Below are positions 10,650-20,853 of a stretch of 35,401 nt of DNA, one piece after another; positions within the stretch are counted from its first letter, which is position 1, and each line of letters begins with the position of its first letter. The translations under genes and the position numbers were made by a program. Origin of the DNA: Rubricoccaceae bacterium (GTDB lineage Bacteria > Bacteroidota > Rhodothermia > Rhodothermales > Rubricoccaceae); the NCBI GenBank assembly GCA_024639085.1, contig JAHEJB010000013.1, forward strand, positions 1-35,401, read 5' to 3'. The notes beneath the pieces are model-generated. The model ran no database searches. It worked only from the letters and a program-made list of their open reading frames with translations, and was not told the origin of the DNA.

Positions 10650-11615
10650 TCATTCTCGCATCGCGTTCTCCAGTGCTTGGCGCACATTGCGCTGGAAGCC
10701 CTCAAATTTGGCACGTTTCACAGGGTTCCTTCGGAAGCGCCGACGGAAATCTTCGAGGTTGAGTTCGGCCCATTCGGAGAGCTGGGTTGTCTCCATGCCT
10801 TCTCGGGGTAAGAATCGGGAGTCGGTCGTTGGCTTTTTGAACTTGTTCCACGGGCACACATCCTGACAGATATCGCAGCCGAAGATCCACGAACCGAAGT
10901 CCTTAGCTACGCTATCCGGAATGTCGTCCCCCCGATGTTCGATGGTCCAGTAGGAGATGCAGCGATTCGAATCCACAGAGTATGGCCGATCAATAGCGTC
11001 CGTTGGGCAGGCATCGATACAACGCGTACACGAACCACAGTAGTCGGCCGAGAATGGTTCATCAGCCGCCAACGGCACATCCACAATCATCTCTGCGATA
11101 AAGAAATAGGAGCCTATCTCGCGGTTGATCAGATTTGTGTGCTTCCCCATCCATCCGAGGCCGGCGCGTTGCGCCCACGCTTTGTCGAGCACCGGAGCGG
11201 AATCCACGAACACACGCCCGGTAATTCCTCCCACTTGTTCATCCAGCCACGCGAATAGCTCCGCCAGCTTTTCTTTCAGTACATCGTGGTAATCGTCTCC
11301 CCAGGCGTATCGGCTGATCTTGCCAACGTCGAGGCTCTGTGTGTGTCCCACAGGTTGGTAGTAGCTGTGCAGAACGGACACGACAGACCTGGCCCCTGGA
11401 ACGAGCTGACGAGGGTCCACACGCTTCTCGAAGTGGTTTTCCATCCAACCCATGCTTGCATGGCGTCCGTCGTTCAACCACGCCTCCAGTCTTCGAGCTT
11501 CATTGTCCAGCCGTTCAGCTCGGGCAATTCCGCAAGCATCAAACCCGATTCGCCGCGCCTCGGCCTTGAGTTCGCGCGAAAGGCGTTCCTGAGCATGGTC
11601 ATCGAAACCGGGCAT
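10650..11615 (-). CDS. queG: Epoxyqueuosine reductase
   Basis: The 321-residue protein catalyses the last step of queuosine synthesis, reducing epoxyqueuosine to queuosine in the anticodon loop of GUN-decoding tRNAs with cobalamin and two [4Fe-4S] clusters. The clusters are visible as CGSCTRCIDACP and CDICQDVCPWNK. The N-terminal region FDACGIARAERLDNEARRLE and the following GWMEN are typical of QueG. The length is somewhat short of E. coli QueG (379) because the C-terminal HEAT-like extension is missing, as in many Bacteroidota. It ends 18 bp from the histidine kinase stop in tail-to-tail orientation. Confidence 0.95.
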   Translation of the reverse strand: MPGFDDHAQERLSRELKAEARRIGFDACGIARAERLDNEARRLEAWLNDGRHASMGWMENHFEKRVDPRQLVPGARSVVSVLHSYYQPVGHTQSLDVGKISRYAWGDDYHDVLKEKLAELFAWLDEQVGGITGRVFVDSAPVLDKAWAQRAGLGWMGKHTNLINREIGSYFFIAEMIVDVPLAADEPFSADYCGSCTRCIDACPTDAIDRPYSVDSNRCISYWTIEHRGDDIPDSVAKDFGSWIFGCDICQDVCPWNKFKKPTTDSRFLPREGMETTQLSEWAELNLEDFRRRFRRNPVKRAKFEGFQRNVRQALENAMRE

Positions 11616-11668: not shown

Positions 11669-11706
11669 TAAAAACGGCCCCACCAACAGAAGGGCAGGGC
11701 CGTTTG
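11669..11706 (-). terminator. Terminator of OmpA-like gene A
   Basis: On the minus strand, AAACGGCCC pairs with GGGCCGTTT around a short loop and is followed by a T-rich tail. It lies 38-76 bp after the stop of gene A and separates it from queG. Confidence 0.8.
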
Positions 11707-11744: not shown

Positions 11745-13025
11745 TTAGTGAACCATATTCTGAAAGCGACGGCAGTCCATCGGAAGGGACTCGACTCGAC
11801 GTCCGCGGCGGCATCCTTCTTCAGGGTCTTCTTTATCGCATGGCGGGTAAGAAGCCCCTCGGTTGCGCACATGCATCCGGTCGTTAGAGATGCCACGATC
11901 AACATAGTAGTTGTACACGGCTTCGGCGCGGCGACCTGCGAGCGGCATTCCGAACTGATCGTATTCCGACGTGTCGGTGTAACCGTCGATGAAAAGGCAG
12001 CATTCTGGATTCTCGCGAAGCGACTGAACGTTCTCGGCGAGCAGCGCACGCGCCTGTGGAGTCAGGTTTGTTTCGCCGTGGTCGAAGTAAATGGTGTTGA
12101 GTTCGACCAGATCACATACCGCTGGTGGAGGTGTTGGCGGAACCGGCGGCCGTGGTGGCGTTGGAGGTGTCGGCGGAACTGGAGGAACAGGTGGTATTGG
12201 TGGCGGTGGCGGAGGTGCACCTCCGAACCCGAAGTTGAGTCCGCCTGTGAAGAGGGTAGTGTGGAATCTGTTGTCGAAGTTGAAGTCGCCTTCCGGGTCG
12301 ACGTCCGGGTCTTCCTTGCACTCAGGAAGCTCGGGGAATTTCTTGCACTTACATGCCATGCCGTCCGGGTCGACTTCGCAAGGATCGCCGCCGCCGCCTG
12401 AGTTCGCTGTTACTGGAGACACGGCTTCCCCTAGCTCATTGAGCAGGAAGCGGTAGCTGCCCTCCAGATAGAACGAGACGTTGCGCGAGAGGCGGAAGTC
12501 AACACCCAGACCGGCCGGAATGAAGTACGCCGTCCGTTCGCGGTCCAGCGTGTCAATGAAGTCATCCTGCCCGAATGGGTCTGCGATGAGCGCCCCGAAT
12601 CCAGAGAAGATGTAAGGCACGACGTTGCTACGGCGGTGCGATGCCGTCAGGATGAGGTCGCCCTCGGCAAGCAGCAGCTCGTTGGTGAGGAACGGGTTCT
12701 GGCCCGGCCCTACGCCATCCACTTCGCTCGCGCCGATGTTGAGGAGCCCACCGACAGCGCGGAAGTATACCTTGTCGCGTACGAGCGGGAAGGAAAGGTT
12801 GGCCGTAACGCCAAGGCGTGTCTGCGAGACGTTTTCCTGGTCGTCAGGCGATCCGTAGAGGATGTTGGGGCCGAAGTAGCTGAAGGGGCCGATACCAATG
12901 CCAAGGCGTACGCCCGGCGCGTTGTCCTGAGTCTGATCCAGCGTGTGGTAGGGCGTTTGCGCGTCAGCAGTTAATGCGAGCGCGAATCCGAGGCCAAGCG
13001 CAAGGATGAGCGTACGGGATAGCAT
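11745..13025 (-). CDS. OmpA-family outer-membrane protein A (proline-rich linker)
   Basis: The 426-residue protein has a signal peptide (MLSRTLILALGLGFALALTA, cleaved near DA-Q) and an outer-membrane beta-barrel to about residue 270. A proline-rich linker of PPVPP/PPTPP units and an OmpA-like peptidoglycan-binding domain from about 312 follow. The peptidoglycan-binding positions are present: Asp in GYTDTSEYD and Arg in AGRRAEAV. Residues 1-278 are encoded by DNA identical to gene B (12192-13057 = 13894-14759). A cysteine segment, PCEVDPDGMACKCKKFPELP plus EC, lies inside the barrel region. The ATG at 13025 is the only good start; the frame extends to a poor ATT at 13058. It likely tethers the outer membrane to the wall and may act as a porin. 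Confidence 0.9.
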   Translation of the reverse strand: MLSRTLILALGLGFALALTADAQTPYHTLDQTQDNAPGVRLGIGIGPFSYFGPNILYGSPDDQENVSQTRLGVTANLSFPLVRDKVYFRAVGGLLNIGASEVDGVGPGQNPFLTNELLLAEGDLILTASHRRSNVVPYIFSGFGALIADPFGQDDFIDTLDRERTAYFIPAGLGVDFRLSRNVSFYLEGSYRFLLNELGEAVSPVTANSGGGGDPCEVDPDGMACKCKKFPELPECKEDPDVDPEGDFNFDNRFHTTLFTGGLNFGFGGAPPPPPPIPPVPPVPPTPPTPPRPPVPPTPPPAVCDLVELNTIYFDHGETNLTPQARALLAENVQSLRENPECCLFIDGYTDTSEYDQFGMPLAGRRAEAVYNYYVDRGISNDRMHVRNRGASYPPCDKEDPEEGCRRGRRVESLPMDCRRFQNMVH

Positions 13026-13057
13026 GTGCCTAAGGGGGAGAGAGTGGAAGTTCTTCA
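12192..13057. repeat. Copy 1 of an exact 866-bp direct repeat
   Basis: Read against 13894-14759 by eye, no mismatch was found. The repeat covers the start region, signal peptide and beta-barrel coding part of gene A and stops abruptly in the linker, inside a run of GGT/GGC codons' complement. Copies are 1702 bp apart in the same orientation. Confidence 0.9.
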
Positions 13058-13166
13058 ATGGAGAGACGCGAGCCTAACCGAGATCAGGGCTCTGCATCGG
13101 ACCGCGATGCAAGAACCGGCGCATGCTGGTCCACCGGGATTCATCTGAGCAGTCAGGTGACTCATC

Positions 13167-13194
13167 ATTACACCACGCTTTGCTGAAGTGGCAA
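13167..13194 (-). promoter_or_regulatory. Candidate promoter of gene A
   Basis: On the minus strand TTGCCA (13189-13194), a 16-bp spacer and TGTAAT (13167-13172) look like -35/-10 boxes; the -35 box is preceded by a T-run giving TTTTTG. It would give a leader of about 135 nt. It lies outside the repeated block, so it is not shared with gene B. Confidence 0.35.
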
Positions 13195-13283
13195 AAACTG
13201 CGTTGTAGTCTCGCTACTAACGGAGGAAGAAGGGTATGGGAATGTGCTAGTAGCTAAGACTAGAGTCTGAAGGCCGATACACG

Positions 13284-13320
13284 AAAAAGCGGCCTCACTC
13301 TTCAGAGCAAGGCCGCTTAT
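13284..13320 (-). terminator. Terminator of OmpA-like gene B
   Basis: AAGCGGCC pairs with GGCCGCTT, with a further TTGCTC/GAGTGA partial stem and loop between, then a TTTTT tail on the minus strand. It is about 30 bp after the stop of gene B. Confidence 0.82.
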
Positions 13321-13350
13321 TAGTTCAAGTGGGTAAGAGCTTTCGTTGCC

Positions 13351-14727
13351 TTACGGTAACTCGCATGCCCGAATTCCCGGAGGACATGCCGGTGTGATCT
13401 CGATGATGCGACAACTTGGATTACCCGGATTGGGGTTCTCTTTGTCGCAATTCGAGAAGCGCGCCCCGCCTCCTTCATACCGCATGCGGTTGCGAGAAAT
13501 CCCGCGATCGAGGTAATAATCGAAGACAGCTCTCGCTCGTTCGCGTCCTAACTGGGTTCCGTAGCGATCCAGTTCGGAATTGTCGGTATACCCACGAATG
13601 AGCAAATGGCAGTCGGGATTCTCACGGAGTTCGCGGATGTTCTCATCAAGACGAGAAAGTGCGTCGGGGCTAAGGTCCGCTTCTCCATAACTAAAGCTGG
13701 CCGTGTTGAGATCCGCAATATTGCATGCGCAACAGGGTTCTGGCTCCGGCCTACATTCGGGCCGGTTGGGGAACTCAGCGCAGCACGCCGGGCTGCCAGG
13801 ATTTGTCTCGTAGCATGGCGGTTCTGGTTCACATTCAGGTCGGTTGGGGTACTCCGCGCAGCAAGCAGGGCTGCCAGGATCCGTCACATAACATGGTATT
13901 GGTGGCGGTGGCGGAGGTGCACCTCCGAACCCGAAGTTGAGTCCGCCTGTGAAGAGGGTAGTGTGGAATCTGTTGTCGAAGTTGAAGTCGCCTTCCGGGT
14001 CGACGTCCGGGTCTTCCTTGCACTCAGGAAGCTCGGGGAATTTCTTGCACTTACATGCCATGCCGTCCGGGTCGACTTCGCAAGGATCGCCGCCGCCGCC
14101 TGAGTTCGCTGTTACTGGAGACACGGCTTCCCCTAGCTCATTGAGCAGGAAGCGGTAGCTGCCCTCCAGATAGAACGAGACGTTGCGCGAGAGGCGGAAG
14201 TCAACACCCAGACCGGCCGGAATGAAGTACGCCGTCCGTTCGCGGTCCAGCGTGTCAATGAAGTCATCCTGCCCGAATGGGTCTGCGATGAGCGCCCCGA
14301 ATCCAGAGAAGATGTAAGGCACGACGTTGCTACGGCGGTGCGATGCCGTCAGGATGAGGTCGCCCTCGGCAAGCAGCAGCTCGTTGGTGAGGAACGGGTT
14401 CTGGCCCGGCCCTACGCCATCCACTTCGCTCGCGCCGATGTTGAGGAGCCCACCGACAGCGCGGAAGTATACCTTGTCGCGTACGAGCGGGAAGGAAAGG
14501 TTGGCCGTAACGCCAAGGCGTGTCTGCGAGACGTTTTCCTGGTCGTCAGGCGATCCGTAGAGGATGTTGGGGCCGAAGTAGCTGAAGGGGCCGATACCAA
14601 TGCCAAGGCGTACGCCCGGCGCGTTGTCCTGAGTCTGATCCAGCGTGTGGTAGGGCGTTTGCGCGTCAGCAGTTAATGCGAGCGCGAATCCGAGGCCAAG
14701 CGCAAGGATGAGCGTACGGGATAGCAT
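13351..14727 (-). CDS. OmpA-family outer-membrane protein B (cysteine-rich repeat linker)
   Basis: The 458-residue protein has residues 1-278 (signal peptide and beta-barrel) identical to protein A. Its linker (about 279-340) is quite different: two tandem 26-residue units of the pattern PCYxTxPGSPACCAExPNRP followed by EC, rich in Cys and Pro, then a PCCACN segment. The OmpA domain follows (from about 340) with GYTDNSELDRYG and GRERARAVFDYY, keeping the Asp and Arg positions for peptidoglycan. By eye roughly half of its residues match those of A. The many cysteines could form disulfides in the periplasm. It is monocistronic, with its own terminator and upstream region. A and B are probably alternative wall anchors sharing one barrel. 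Confidence 0.9.
   Translation of the reverse strand: MLSRTLILALGLGFALALTADAQTPYHTLDQTQDNAPGVRLGIGIGPFSYFGPNILYGSPDDQENVSQTRLGVTANLSFPLVRDKVYFRAVGGLLNIGASEVDGVGPGQNPFLTNELLLAEGDLILTASHRRSNVVPYIFSGFGALIADPFGQDDFIDTLDRERTAYFIPAGLGVDFRLSRNVSFYLEGSYRFLLNELGEAVSPVTANSGGGGDPCEVDPDGMACKCKKFPELPECKEDPDVDPEGDFNFDNRFHTTLFTGGLNFGFGGAPPPPPPIPCYVTDPGSPACCAEYPNRPECEPEPPCYETNPGSPACCAEFPNRPECRPEPEPCCACNIADLNTASFSYGEADLSPDALSRLDENIRELRENPDCHLLIRGYTDNSELDRYGTQLGRERARAVFDYYLDRGISRNRMRYEGGGARFSNCDKENPNPGNPSCRIIEITPACPPGIRACELP
13753..13895. repeat. Tandem 78-bp repeat encoding 26-residue Cys/Pro units
   Basis: Unit 1 starts at 13753 and unit 2 at 13831 (78 bp apart, reading frame kept), each containing GGTTGGGG, GCGCAGCA and GGGCTGCCAGGAT. 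They encode the linker of protein B. The second unit ends where the 866-bp repeat begins. Confidence 0.85.
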
Positions 14728-14759
14728 GTGCCTAAGGGGGAGAGAGTGGAAGTTCTTCA
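13894..14759. repeat. Copy 2 of the exact 866-bp direct repeat
   Basis: It matches 12192-13057 without visible mismatch. The first difference upstream of the start codon is at 14760 (G versus A at 13058), after which the sequences diverge within about 10 bp. Confidence 0.9.
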
Positions 14760-14840
14760 GTGGAGAGAGGCAGTTCCTAACCGAAGGCAGGACTGTCCAT
14801 GGACATGCCTCACAAAAAGAGGAGCAATATGCTTGCGCAG

Positions 14841-14868
14841 GATATAATCGTGAGATGTGAATCGTAAA
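14841..14868 (-). promoter_or_regulatory. Candidate promoter of gene B
   Basis: On the minus strand TTTACG (14863-14868), a 16-bp spacer and TATATC (14841-14846) precede gene B by about 115 nt. The fit is modest. The sequence differs from the region upstream of gene A. Confidence 0.28.
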
Positions 14869-14985
14869 CGTTACATGAACGGCAGTTAGAGTCTAAAAAC
14901 CATTCAACCTCCAGCAATCCTTACAGCAGTGATTACGGCTACCGAAGAGACGACGTGAACAGGAAAACTTTCTGCTGACGCCCAT

Positions 14986-15029
14986 GAAAAGGGGCGGCCT
15001 CGCAATCATGCGGGTCCGCCCCTTCTTTA
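14986..15029 (-). terminator. Terminator of OmpA-like gene C
   Basis: On the minus strand AAGGGGCGG and a CCGC/GCGG extension pair with CCGCCCCTT, followed by TTTC. Stem and loop resemble the terminator of gene D almost base for base. It lies about 30 bp after the stop of gene C. Confidence 0.82.
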
Positions 15030-15055
15030 TTCAAACCGTGGGGTCCGAATCCTTC

Positions 15056-15925
15056 TTAGTTGAAGCCTCCGAGGCGGGAGCAGTCAACAGGGATGGAGTC
15101 GGAACGGCGCGCGTTACGGTCGCCCGGTCCCGGATCTTCCTTCGAGTTGGAGTCCGGATGTTCACCGAGGCCGCGAGACACAATCCTACTCGCGTCGATG
15201 CCATTGGCAACGTAGTACGCTTGTACTTCGTCAGCACGGCGCTCGGAGAGGCGCAGCTTGTCGCGCTCCTGATCGTCGGCATAGCCATCAATCACGATGC
15301 AGATGTCCGGACAGCGCGAAAGGACGCCTATGTTTTCATCAAGTCGGCCGCGTCCTTCGCTGCTGAGAGAGTTCATCTGGTAGTCGAAGAAGACCGTATT
15401 AAGCTCCGCTACTTCTTCGCAGAAGCCACCAAGGACAGTCACCGTACATGTCGAACTGTCACTGCCCGCGGCATTTGTTGCTGTAACGGTCACAAGGTAG
15501 GTGCCTGGGGCGCTGTAGTTATGAGTAGCAGGCAGGCTGCTAGCAGTGGAGCCATCCCCGAAGTGTACACTCACCGAAGGCTCCGAACCTGTGATATTAC
15601 CGGAGACGGTAATTGTCTGGCCGATATCTGTGCGGCTTGGCGAGACGCGGCAACTTGCCGTCGGTGCTTCGGCTACTTCAGCTACGTTCACGAGGCAGGT
15701 GTCGGTGTCGGAATTGTAAGGCCCTTCAGCCGAAAAGGAGACCGTGTAGGAACCAGGTGCCGAGAAAGCGTGCAAGGCGGTCATGCCACTTCCGGTAGTT
15801 CCGTCGCCAAAGTTCCACGAATAGGAGACAGGCTGTGAGGCGTCAGCGTTGCTCGAAGCTGTGAACGAGCCATTCTGGCCCACGATCAGCTCCGATGAAC
15901 AGTCCGCCATCACATCGACGTTCAC
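15056..15925. repeat. Copy of the PKD-OmpA coding block (gene C), near-identical to 16951-17823
   Basis: This part of gene C matches 16951-17823 of gene D at most positions, with scattered, mostly third-position changes and a one-codon gap. Similarity drops upstream, where the barrels begin. The boundary is estimated by eye. Confidence 0.75.
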
Positions 15926-16627
15926 ACCGGCACCCTTGAAGAAAAAGCGGAGGCCACCGCCATAAAATGTTAGTGCGTCGTAATCGGCATCATCTGCCCA
16001 CGGGAGACTGTTTGCACTCGGGTCGGAGCTGTCAACGGCGTCATCCGGGAAGATCAGAGAGCCGGAGCCTTCAAGGAACAGCGAAACTTGACGACCCAAC
16101 AGAATATCCAGGCCACCGCCTAGATGCGGCCCGTATCCCGCTATCCTATTGCCGCTGCGGGGATCCTCACCCTGCCCCCGAATCACTACGCCACCAAATT
16201 GAATGTAGGGGCTGACTTTCCAACCAGGTATGAGATTAAAGCGGAATAGTCCTTGCAATTGTGATACAGAGGTACCCGCATTGATCTGTCCGGCTTGCAA
16301 AGTGACTGGGCTTAGAGCGTTGGTGCGATCAAGATTGTTGTACTGCCCGTAAAAGAAACCAATGCCAAAACTAAGAGCGCGTGTAAACTGGTAGCCGATC
16401 TCGCCACCACCACCAAAGCCAAGATCACGGATCATCCACGCTAAAGAGCCAGAATCATCGCCAGCGGGCGCAGAACCAGTCCCGTCGAGTTCGCCGCCGT
16501 AGGCGATCGCTCCACCGCGAGCGGAAATGTAAAGTGTTTCGCTAGGTCGCTGAGCGCTCGCAACCGTCGTTGCAACACACAGTGCGACGATGGCAACGAG
16601 AGGCAAGAATCGAAGAGTACGTTCCAT
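15056..16627 (-). CDS. OmpA-family outer-membrane protein C with two PKD domains
   Basis: The 523-residue protein has a signal peptide (MERTLRFLPLVAIVALCVAT, cleaved near ASA-Q26) and a beta-barrel to about residue 245 (GGEIGYQF, YGPHLGGGLDI, GGGLRFFFKG). Two PKD domains follow, at about 250-325 (WNFGDGTTGSG) and 330-405 (VHFGDGSTASS). An OmpA domain runs from about 410, with Asp in GYADDQERD and Arg in SERRADEV. PKD domains probably act as a rigid spacer through the periplasm. The PKD and OmpA part is nearly identical to D, with one codon fewer (SEPSVSV versus SEPYTVSV), whereas the barrel has diverged. The ATG at 16627 is followed by a good signal peptide. It has its own promoter region and terminator. 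Confidence 0.92.
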   Translation of the reverse strand: MERTLRFLPLVAIVALCVATTVASAQRPSETLYISARGGAIAYGGELDGTGSAPAGDDSGSLAWMIRDLGFGGGGEIGYQFTRALSFGIGFFYGQYNNLDRTNALSPVTLQAGQINAGTSVSQLQGLFRFNLIPGWKVSPYIQFGGVVIRGQGEDPRSGNRIAGYGPHLGGGLDILLGRQVSLFLEGSGSLIFPDDAVDSSDPSANSLPWADDADYDALTFYGGGLRFFFKGAGVNVDVMADCSSELIVGQNGSFTASSNADASQPVSYSWNFGDGTTGSGMTALHAFSAPGSYTVSFSAEGPYNSDTDTCLVNVAEVAEAPTASCRVSPSRTDIGQTITVSGNITGSEPSVSVHFGDGSTASSLPATHNYSAPGTYLVTVTATNAAGSDSSTCTVTVLGGFCEEVAELNTVFFDYQMNSLSSEGRGRLDENIGVLSRCPDICIVIDGYADDQERDKLRLSERRADEVQAYYVANGIDASRIVSRGLGEHPDSNSKEDPGPGDRNARRSDSIPVDCSRLGGFN

Positions 16628-16791
16628 GGGGCAGAAGACGATCGAGTGATTGACGGCGGAAATGGCGTCGCTACTCGATATACCAATCTCACCAAAGCGC
16701 GTGGAGGCGGAGAACTTTGGGCAATCGAGAAAGAGCGTAGTTCACCTTTTTGATAATACTCCGTAAAACTTTATACCCCAACAAAACAGTA

Positions 16792-16823
16792 CAAAATTAT
16801 GGTTCAAGGAAGTTCGCCCTAAA
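16792..16823 (-). promoter_or_regulatory. Candidate Bacteroidota-type promoter of gene C
   Basis: On the minus strand TTTA (16820-16823), a 20-bp spacer and TAATTTTG (16792-16799) match the -33 TTTG / -7 TAnnTTTG promoter known in Bacteroidota, with an exact -7 box. It lies in an AT-rich stretch just after the gene D terminator, about 165 nt before gene C. Confidence 0.42.
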
Positions 16824-16883
16824 TCGCAACTGTCTGTGGCTTAGGACGCGAAACTGTACTGTTCCGTGTTTTATCCAAAATAG

Positions 16884-16920
16884 AAAGGGCGGCCCCGCAT
16901 GAAAGCGAGGCCGCCCTTTT
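16884..16920 (-). terminator. Terminator of OmpA-like gene D
   Basis: AAAGGGCGGCCTCGC pairs with GCGGGGCCGCCCTTT (one G.T or mismatch) around a short TTTCAT loop. The stem runs into T residues on the minus strand. It lies about 31 bp after the stop of gene D. Confidence 0.85.
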
Positions 16921-16950
16921 GATATTCAGACCGTGAGGTCCAAATCCGTC

Positions 16951-18555
16951 TTAGTTGAAGCTTCCGAGGCGGGAGCAGTCAACAGGGATGGAGTCGGCAC
17001 GGCGTGCGTTACGGTCGCCCGGTCCCGGATCTTCCTTCGAATTGGAGTCCGGATGCTCACCGAGGCCGCGAGCAACAATCCTGCTCTCGTCGATGCCGTT
17101 GGCGACATAGTACGCTTGTACTTCGTCAGCACGGCGCTCAGAGAGGCGCAGCTTGTCGCGCTCCTGATCGTCGGCGTAGCCGTTGATCACGACGCAGATG
17201 TTCGGACAGCGTGTGAGAACCTCGATGTTCTCGTCAAGGCGGCTACGCGCCTCGCTGCTGAGCGAGCTCATCTCGTAGTCGAAGTAGACCGTGTTCAGTT
17301 CGGTCACTTCGTCGCAGAAGGAGTCGCCGATAGTCACTGTACACGTGCTGCTGTCGCTACCGTAGGCGTTGGTCGCCGTCACTGTGACGGTGTAGGTGCC
17401 TGGGTCGCTGTAGCTATGCGTAGCGGGTAGGCTGCTGGCTGTTGCGCCGTCGCCGAAGTCTACGCTGACCGTGTAAGGCTCGGAGCCTGTGATAGTGCCC
17501 GATACCGTAACCGTCTGGCCGATGTCTGCGCGGCTTGGCGAGACGCGGCAGCTGGCCGTTGGTGCTTCGGTTACTTCAACCACGTTCACGAGACAGGTGT
17601 CTGTGTCGGAGTTGTAGGGGCCATCAGCCGTAACGGAGACGGTGTAGGAACCAGGAGCCGAGAAGGCGTGGGAGGCGGTCATACCGCTTCCGGTGGTTCC
17701 GTCGCCGAAGTTCCATGCGTAGGAGACGGGCTGTGAGGCGTCGGCGTTGCTCGAAGCCGTGAACGAGCCACTCTGGCCTACGTTCAACTCCGAAGAACAG
17801 TCTGCCATCACGTTGACGTTTACACCAGGACCCTTGAAGAAGAAGCGGAGACCGCCTCCATAAAGGTTCAGGTTGTCATAATCCGCGTCGTCACCAAAGG
17901 GAACGGTACCGCCTCCTGGATTTGAGCTGTCAACGGCGTCATCTGGGAAGACAAACGTAGTTGTTGCTTCCAGGAAGAGTGAAACCTTGCGGCCCAACTG
18001 CAGATCAAGGCCACCTCCCAATAGAGGACCGTATCCAGTGATATCGCTGCCACCGGCATCAACACCCTGGCCTCGAACTACGGACGCACCAAGCTCGATG
18101 TAAGGCGTAAGCCTTGAGCTAGGCCATGGCATGTAACGGAACATCGCCTGAATCTGGCTAACATTCTCATCCGCGTTCAACTGGCAGCCTGTTCGAGGCG
18201 GCGTGTTGTTACCAGAGCATCCCGGGATGTTGGGGTTAGCGGCATCATCACGATCAAGGTTGGCATACTTGCCATACAAGTAACCGACCGCAAATCCGAG
18301 ATGCTGGTCAAACTGGTATCCGATCTCGCCGCCGAAGCCATAGCCAAGATCGCTGAAGAGCCATCCGAATTCGCTATCAGCGTCGCCGAACGAAAAGCCG
18401 GTACCGTCGAGTTCGCCGCCGTAGGCGGTCGCACCGCCTCGGAGGCCAATGAAGAGTGTATTGCTAGGGCGCTGTGCCTGGACTTCCGTCATAAAGACGA
18501 GAGTCAGCATGGCAAGACAGCCGAGCATAAATGAAGATGGTAGACGCTTGGTCAT
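16951..18555 (-). CDS. OmpA-family outer-membrane protein D with two PKD domains
   Basis: The 534-residue protein starts at ATG 18555, which is preceded by AGGAGA, an unusually clear ribosome binding site for this window; the frame extends 106 codons further upstream without likely coding sense. A signal peptide (MTKRLPSSFMLGCLAMLTLV, cleaved near VQA-Q28) precedes a beta-barrel to about residue 255. The barrel includes a cysteine-bearing loop (PGCSGNNTPPRTGCQ) absent from C. Two PKD domains (WNFGDGTTGSG, VDFGDGATASS) and an OmpA domain (GYADDQERD, SERRADEV) follow. By eye about half the barrel residues match C, but nearly all of the PKD and OmpA residues do. It probably spans from the outer membrane to peptidoglycan. 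Confidence 0.92.
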   Translation of the reverse strand: MTKRLPSSFMLGCLAMLTLVFMTEVQAQRPSNTLFIGLRGGATAYGGELDGTGFSFGDADSEFGWLFSDLGYGFGGEIGYQFDQHLGFAVGYLYGKYANLDRDDAANPNIPGCSGNNTPPRTGCQLNADENVSQIQAMFRYMPWPSSRLTPYIELGASVVRGQGVDAGGSDITGYGPLLGGGLDLQLGRKVSLFLEATTTFVFPDDAVDSSNPGGGTVPFGDDADYDNLNLYGGGLRFFFKGPGVNVNVMADCSSELNVGQSGSFTASSNADASQPVSYAWNFGDGTTGSGMTASHAFSAPGSYTVSVTADGPYNSDTDTCLVNVVEVTEAPTASCRVSPSRADIGQTVTVSGTITGSEPYTVSVDFGDGATASSLPATHSYSDPGTYTVTVTATNAYGSDSSTCTVTIGDSFCDEVTELNTVYFDYEMSSLSSEARSRLDENIEVLTRCPNICVVINGYADDQERDKLRLSERRADEVQAYYVANGIDESRIVARGLGEHPDSNSKEDPGPGDRNARRADSIPVDCSRLGSFN

Positions 18556-18890: not shown

Positions 18891-19145
18891 TTAGTCGATC
18901 GTGCTCACGAAACGCTCCAAACGGCTTTTCATGTTTGCCGCTTTATTGGGGTGGAGGAGTCGCCTCGTAGCCAGGCGATCAAGCTGAGCCTTCACCGCAT
19001 TCAGTTTCTGATCAGCGTCCTCGCGGGATGTTGTTTCGCGCAAGTCTTTGATCATCGTACGGACGCGGGCATGATGGAAACGGTTGCTCAAACGGCGTTT
19101 TGCCGATTGGCGGACTCGTTTTGCAGCTGATTTGTGCTGTGGCAT
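18891..19145 (-). CDS. rpsT: 30S ribosomal protein S20
   Basis: The 84-residue, strongly basic, helical protein matches bS20, which binds 16S rRNA early in 30S assembly. The N-terminus MPQHKSAAKRVRQSAKRRLS, the middle KDLRETTS and the C-terminal LHPNKAANMKSRLERFV are characteristic. Length is normal for the family. It is transcribed away from the M23/atp cluster, with about 250 bp between them, and is probably monocistronic. Confidence 0.96.
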   Translation of the reverse strand: MPQHKSAAKRVRQSAKRRLSNRFHHARVRTMIKDLRETTSREDADQKLNAVKAQLDRLATRRLLHPNKAANMKSRLERFVSTID

Positions 19146-19394: not shown

Positions 19395-20315
19395 TTGAAT
19401 CTCCTTTTCCTCCGCGACCTATTTGCCCGCTCTGGGACAACTCGTACGATTGTTCTGCTGGAGCAGGACATGATGGCCTCGCCGAGGCAGTATGAAGTGA
19501 AGCCCAAAAGCCTTCTTTATGGAATCGGAGCATTCACACTTGTATCTGTACTGCTCGTTGTTGGCGTCTTTCTATTCACACCTGTTCGCGGCTTGTTCGG
19601 AGGAACTAATCTCGAAAACTATCGCGGAATAGCTGAACTGAATGCGCGTAGAGCGGCTGCGTTTGAGGACTCCGTTGCCACCCAGTACCGCCAAATCACT
19701 CAATTGCGTGCGCTGATTACGGGAGACCTGGACAGCTTGACAACCACAGTTCCCGTCTCCGATGATCCCCTTCTTCCCGAACCTGCCGAAGCCGAGGCTG
19801 TTCTTGGCGTGACGCTGGATGAACCGCTCTCTCCAAACCAATCCGTGCACGAACAACCCGCCGTGCCGTTCCGGTGGCTGGATGTTAGTGGAGATACCGA
19901 CCCTCTGCCAGGATCTGTCGCAGAGGCTTATCTCTCCAGTCTGCGTCTCCCAGCTCTTCCTCCTGCAGAGGGTTTCTTCACACGTGGGTTCAACGCACGA
20001 CAAGGCCATTTTGGACTTGATATAGCCGTAGACGATGGATCACCCATTCGAGCGGTTGGTGATGGCTACATAGTTTTCGCAGACTGGACGCATGAAGGGG
20101 GATATGTCATTGCCGTTCAACACGCAGACGGCTACCTATCGGTTTACAAACACAACTCAAGCCTGCTAAAGAGAATCGGCGACCGCGTAGGTAGCCGTGA
20201 AACCGTTGCTCTCAGCGGAAACACAGGCGAAATTACCTCCGGGCCACACCTTCATTTTGAATTGTGGAGAAATGGCCTTGCGCAGGATCCACGGACACTA
20301 TTCGTGACGCCATAA
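19395..20315 (+). CDS. M23-family metallopeptidase, membrane-anchored
   Basis: The 306-residue protein has one N-terminal transmembrane segment (SLLYGIGAFTLVSVLLVVGVF), a periplasmic coiled or extended region, and a C-terminal LytM/M23 domain (about 190-300). The zinc ligands are present: H205 and D209 in GHFGLD and H287 in HLHFEL, with H285 next to it. M23 enzymes are peptidoglycan endopeptidases. The start is uncertain. TTG 19395 keeps the protein-like segment RDLFARSGTTRTIVLLEQD; ATG 19470 has a GGAG eight bases upstream and still includes the anchor. The bactofilin gene begins 4 bp after its stop, a known pairing in which bactofilin positions the hydrolase. Confidence 0.9.
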   Translation: MNLLFLRDLFARSGTTRTIVLLEQDMMASPRQYEVKPKSLLYGIGAFTLVSVLLVVGVFLFTPVRGLFGGTNLENYRGIAELNARRAAAFEDSVATQYRQITQLRALITGDLDSLTTTVPVSDDPLLPEPAEAEAVLGVTLDEPLSPNQSVHEQPAVPFRWLDVSGDTDPLPGSVAEAYLSSLRLPALPPAEGFFTRGFNARQGHFGLDIAVDDGSPIRAVGDGYIVFADWTHEGGYVIAVQHADGYLSVYKHNSSLLKRIGDRVGSRETVALSGNTGEITSGPHLHFELWRNGLAQDPRTLFVTP

Positions 20316-20319
20316 ATCC

Positions 20320-20853
20320 ATGAGTGTTTGGAATCGTAAGAATTTGGCCTTAACTAATCGGCCCGCCCCATCGCAAACCCCCGCACCCATGGCCAGAAAC
20401 CTGACACCAGAGTCCACATCGAATCCCGCAGAACAGCACAACATCCTGGGTAAAGACACAGTAATCGAAGGCACGCTACGTTCGAGTGGCAACGTACATA
20501 TTAGTGGTACGGTCAAAGGCAATGTAGAGGTTCAGGGGCGGACCGTTGTGATGCCCGGTGGTGCTGTGGAAGGCGAGGTTTCCTCTACTACAGCCGAAAT
20601 TGGTGGGAAGGTCCAAGGGCAGATCGCTGTTAGCGAACGCCTTGTTCTGAAATCGACTGCAGTTGTGGATGGAGATCTGCGTACCGCCAAATTGGTTATC
20701 GAAGACGGCGCTTCGTTTTCTGGACGTTGCGACATGAGCGGATCTTCCCGATCATCGCGTTCAACAGAAAAAGAAAGCCCTGGCGACGTCTCAAGACCTA
20801 CGCGAATGCTGGGAGGTAATCCAGACGCACAAAAGGATGCGGTGAAGGCCTAG
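20320..20853 (+). CDS. Bactofilin (polymer-forming cytoskeletal protein)
   Basis: The 177-residue protein has a central right-handed beta-helix bactofilin domain (about residues 40-140) with hydrophobic and glycine periodicity: TVIEGTLRSSGNVHISGTVK, then GNVEVQGRTVVMPGGAVEGE and KLVIEDGASFSGRCDM. Disordered N- and C-terminal tails flank it. Bactofilins polymerise without nucleotide on the inner face of the membrane and organise wall enzymes. It is 4 bp after the M23 gene and 5 bp before atpZ, so it is almost certainly co-transcribed with both. Confidence 0.93.
   Translation: MSVWNRKNLALTNRPAPSQTPAPMARNLTPESTSNPAEQHNILGKDTVIEGTLRSSGNVHISGTVKGNVEVQGRTVVMPGGAVEGEVSSTTAEIGGKVQGQIAVSERLVLKSTAVVDGDLRTAKLVIEDGASFSGRCDMSGSSRSSRSTEKESPGDVSRPTRMLGGNPDAQKDAVKA

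Follow-up and report, generated by a model that had tools for sequence, protein, structure and literature searches.

A cluster of four probable membrane-to-wall tether genes in a Rubricoccaceae genome, two of which share an identical barrel sequence

The closest described relatives of the proteins considered here are OmpA, the lipoprotein Pal, and PorE of type IX secretion, all of which contain an OmpA domain. For PorE, the residues Asp576 and Arg591 of this domain are used for binding of the stem peptide (PMC7192894). A second point of reference is the pairing of an M23 peptidase with a bactofilin, a cell-shape pair reported in 226 species (PMC10945521). Such morphogenesis pairs are known from other phyla. 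With regard to tandem paralogues, one account of concerted evolution in prokaryotes describes gene conversion that leaves paralogues within a genome more alike than orthologues (PMC6053082). A literature search for a named system matching the present locus found none.

The window, i.e., the whole stretch of 35,401 nucleotides that was analysed, contains four intact open reading frames at 11745–18555, all on the minus strand and transcribed in the order D, C, B, A. Gene A (11745–13025) encodes a signal peptide, a putative barrel, a proline-rich spacer (12123–12194), and an OmpA domain; gene B (13351–14727) has a barrel sequence identical to that of A, followed by two 26-residue cysteine repeats and a divergent OmpA domain. 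Genes C (15056–16627) and D (16951–18555) both combine a putative barrel with a double PKD spacer (15425–15925 and 17320–17823, respectively) and an OmpA domain. The start of D is placed at 18555, in line with the sequence-only reading described below, the longer GTG-initiated frame that reaches 18873 being mechanical. In profile searches, the OmpA domain model PF00691 scores 41.9–53.3 bits in all four proteins (cut-off 27.2), and the PKD domain exceeds its cut-off twice each in C and D. A sequence-only reading of this DNA had described four same-strand genes for signal peptide, barrel, spacer, and OmpA domain, with three types of spacer (proline-rich in A, cysteine repeats in B, and double PKD in C and D); the array is confirmed as described, and is real far beyond chance.

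The N-terminal parts of A–D are probably outer-membrane barrels, to judge from sequence. The barrel model PF13505 (cut-off 28.7) scores 30.1 in D, 23.7 in C, and about 17.6 in A and B, so that only D lies above the cut-off, and relatives of the C/D barrel reach 38.6–39.9. AlphaFold models of B and D, built from input alignments of just three to four sequences, have a pLDDT below 40 in the barrel region. The signal peptides terminate in DAQ, SAQ, or QAQ, and the lipobox cysteine sought at the signal-peptide end is absent from all four proteins. The Asp and Arg of the peptidoglycan-binding groove, which grasp the stem peptide in OmpA domains of solved structure, are retained in A, B, C, and D (GYTD or GYAD, and the RA motif), the loop separating them being two residues shorter in C and D.

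To judge from these domains, A–D are probably tethers that hold the outer membrane to the cell wall. The barrel would reside in the outer membrane, the OmpA domain would grip the peptide stem of peptidoglycan, and the spacer would bridge some of the periplasm. Lying between membrane barrel and wall-gripping domain, the spacer would set the reach and stiffness of the tether; the three spacer types would differ in length and stiffness, and the four genes may be put to different uses.

Separate expression of the genes is suggested by their 3′ ends. A hairpin scan identified terminator-like hairpins on the minus strand after D (16884–16919), B (13287–13318), and A (11672–11705). An imperfect hairpin after C (14991–15022, minus strand) was absent from the scan output and was read from the sequence; it is weaker and resembles the hairpin after D. 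Given the hairpins after D, B, and A, together with the weaker one after C, the array probably comprises four separate transcription units, each gene giving its own transcript. A scan for sigma-70-type promoters produced matches that were not above those in shuffled sequence.

Downstream of A lies queG (10650–11615, minus strand; TIGR00276, 360 bits, cut-off 200), which is also the downstream neighbour in most families. The conserved divergent neighbour on the opposite side is an M23 peptidase gene (19395–20315, plus strand; PF01551, 92 bits), adjoined by a bactofilin gene (20320–20853, plus strand; PF04519, 95.5 bits), and the presence of these two genes next door suits an envelope locus. ATP synthase genes come after the pair. 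Between D and the M23 gene is a gene for ribosomal protein S20 (18891–19145, minus strand; PF01649, 76 bits), shorter than the 100-residue limit of the open reading frame list.

The comparison took in nine genomes from the family, along with 28 more from elsewhere in the order. The recurring arrangement starts with the M23 peptidase, continues with zero to three PKD-OmpA genes and a single A-type gene, and closes with queG and then a histidine kinase; the order from M23 to queG is kept over several families. The A-type gene is present once per genome in relatives, in a conserved position by queG. Exceptions are two genera of the family, in which queG is non-adjacent, and family f4, in which the PKD-type and A-type genes occupy separate loci. 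Some arrays show irregularities. In two genomes the reading frame of the A-type gene is broken, by a frame change at G004:C1:4115066-4116356 and by an in-frame TAG at G005:C169:66982-68112, reflecting either decay or sequencing error. An additional, strongly diverged PKD-type gene heads the array of G004 (L034:4931-6976), with a 681-residue open reading frame of odd letter make-up. The genus itself is represented by one other genome, G001, whose array is split over two contigs. Its second array gene stops within the barrel at the end of contig C82 (L031:1-1420) and continues into unrelated sequence, and the tail of this gene probably begins contig C143, which looks like an assembly fault.

In a tree of 72 OmpA domains (36 + 36), a single branch separates the A type from the C/D type (SH-aLRT 87, from few columns), and no exchange of modules between the two types is seen. 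As each type falls on one side of this branch, spacer, barrel, and OmpA type appear to travel together. The sequence-only reading had gone further and proposed that barrels, spacers, and wall anchors are reshuffled here, as an adaptive system that could adjust envelope spacing or surface exposure. The linkage of module types across the 72 domains and the conserved gene order both run against such a system, and we consider it very doubtful.

Genes A and B are identical, with 0 differences, over 866 nt, made up of the 32 nt ahead of the ATG and 834 nt of coding sequence that reach the barrel's end and the first prolines of the spacer. The two copies (12192–13057 in A and 13894–14759 in B, both on the minus strand) are the only occurrences of the stretch in the whole genome. 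Past the tract, amino-acid identity between A and B drops to about 47%, and the OmpA codons are about 55% identical; just upstream of it, the two leaders are alike yet diverged (z = 7.9). Within the tract, the paralogues (100%) are closer to one another than A is to its orthologue in G001, with which it shares about 80% nucleotide identity across the same stretch; over the full length, A and its same-genus orthologue are 84% identical. A sharp tract edge lying within longer, diverged homology (leader and OmpA domain) is the usual sign of conversion, and the best explanation thus appears to be an older A/B duplication in which gene conversion has recently taken place. The prolines at the end of the tract are A-like, which makes A the more probable donor. 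Independent change of modules between neighbours, as the earlier reading had it, is therefore borne out in A and B insofar as the barrel is copied and the tails are far apart. The exact identity of the barrels, like the resemblance of the B repeats to a barrel loop, had been overlooked.

An exact repeat in a draft genome also invites an explanation by assembly: a loop in a short-read graph or a mixture of strains could have produced the present sequence from a genome with one A-type gene, or with a B that has its own barrel. Since the assembly is a fragmented draft of 235 contigs, 88.7% complete and with no 16S found, as fits a short-read metagenome bin, such a cause keeps some probability; the 866-nt repeat exceeds short-read length, and B occurs in this genome only among those of the family and order that were compared. 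It is nevertheless unlikely to lie behind the repeat. The two copies share a single contig, and all four of their flanks are different; immediately beyond the tract, the leaders are those of diverged paralogues; the B tail is intact and related to the A-type tails of the genus; and a graph loop of this kind, by reasoning, could be read linearly in only one way, with both copies present.

Alternatively, a recent copy of the barrel half of A may have become joined to the front of an old, orphaned OmpA tail, making B a fusion. This partial duplication would account for the distance of the B tail from that of A and for the long branch (1.38) of its OmpA domain, but a full-length paralogue would be expected to show both the homologous yet diverged A/B leader found upstream of the tract and the grouping of the B domain with A-type genes of the genus in the OmpA tree, and we regard a fusion as improbable. 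A functional variant, in which the repeat is kept identical through use, recombination being able to attach the common barrel to each of the two wall-binding tails, strikes us as highly improbable. Were it true, a crossover between the copies would remove 1,702 bp, and the product would be one hybrid gene with B leader, common barrel, and A tail, and hybrid formation would constitute a simple switch of tether type.

Conversion within an older duplication, the explanation we prefer, leaves the spacer and tail of B to be accounted for. The two cysteine repeats (CYxTxPGSPACCAExPNRPEC; 13738–13893, minus strand) are similar to a Cys loop of the barrel (14020–14082), with a likeness score reached by 0 of 20,000 shuffles. 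Among 60 relatives, the repeats gave marginal matches only (E 0.003–0.01), and the cysteine-repeat spacer seems private to B. The spacer may thus have been rebuilt from repeats resembling the barrel loop, while the OmpA domain would have diverged fast.

Genes C and D present a different picture. Protein barrels reject a grouping of C with D (AU p = 0.004), and tail DNA rejects a grouping of D with its orthologue, the first array gene of G001 (AU p = 0.016); barrel DNA trees and tail protein do not separate the alternatives for this pair. Barrel and tail distances are 0.388 and 0.162 between C and D (ratio 2.4), and 0.293 and 0.154 between D and its G001 orthologue (ratio 1.9). As the orthologues show a similar ratio, the C/D contrast seems to be mainly one of rate, with barrels evolving about twice as fast as tails, and there is modest evidence that the C and D tails have been partly converted. 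The claim of independent module change accordingly retains the two AU results for this pair, although most of the contrast behind it is attributable to rate. For the reshuffling proposal, the evidence again points both ways: the half that is shared differs between A/B and C/D, as reshuffling would have it, but the predominance of rate in C/D detracts from this. In G004 and G006, the tail DNA of the two PKD-type genes clusters by genome, with positional orthology rejected (AU p 7.5e-6), for which independent duplication could be an alternative. Across the locus, module trees are congruent between gene types but not within a type.

The clearest modular change at the locus is the predicted lipoprotein form of the PKD-OmpA gene in two families, f5 and f9, where the gene at this position has a lipobox (xGC) and no barrel. 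Genomes of both families carry barrel-PKD-OmpA genes with related tails at other loci; examples of the lipoprotein and barrel forms at different loci are L046:9653-10699 and L107:1432-3036. A lipoprotein at the locus, in genomes that keep barrel versions at other sites, is a further point in favour of reshuffling, against which the test is compatible with the lipoprotein form having arisen once (p = 0.126). A single clade of the barrel forms found elsewhere is rejected (p = 0.004). A simple swap from barrel to lipid anchor at the locus was also considered and had to be softened, since these families keep barrel forms elsewhere; replacement by a paralogue is, for this reason, as likely as an anchor swap. 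The same double-PKD/OmpA tether on either a barrel or a lipid anchor offers a natural comparison for membrane-anchor exchange.

Overall, we think it fairly likely that, in this order, the locus is an old cluster of genes for tethers between outer membrane and peptidoglycan. Its base form would be one A-type gene (barrel, proline linker, and OmpA domain) with at least one PKD/OmpA gene of the C/D type ahead of it. In this genome, A would have been duplicated to give B, whose tail then diverged, and the 866-nt barrel tract of A would recently have been copied onto B by gene conversion. C and D would be an older PKD-type pair, with D retaining the orthologous barrel and the tails of both partly homogenised. 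An impression of shuffled surface genes thereby gives way to a probable tether locus that is defined for one order, with one clean tract of likely conversion.

Set against the described systems, A–D are like OmpA in having a signal peptide, a probable N-terminal barrel, a linker, a C-terminal OmpA domain, and the groove Asp and Arg; they differ in their linkers (proline-rich, cysteine repeats, or two PKD domains) and in occurring as several tandem paralogues, and none of the NCBIfam OmpA equivalogs reaches its cut-off in A–D. The likeness to Pal lies in the predicted lipoprotein with an OmpA domain found at this place in f5 and f9, whereas A–D have putative barrels and no lipobox, C and D carry two PKD domains before the OmpA domain, and the Pal model gives 32–46 bits against a cut-off of 125. 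With PorE, A–D share an OmpA domain of Bacteroidota, the PorE domain being one that binds the stem peptide (PMC7192894); however, PorE is a multi-domain lipoprotein, unlike A–D, which score 35–43 bits against a cut-off of 600. The M23–bactofilin morphogenesis pair is represented by the same two genes at 19395–20853, which are linked by position to the tether genes. Finally, the probable A/B conversion differs from concerted evolution as described in prokaryotes, in that a single module, the barrel, would be converted while the other stays strongly diverged.
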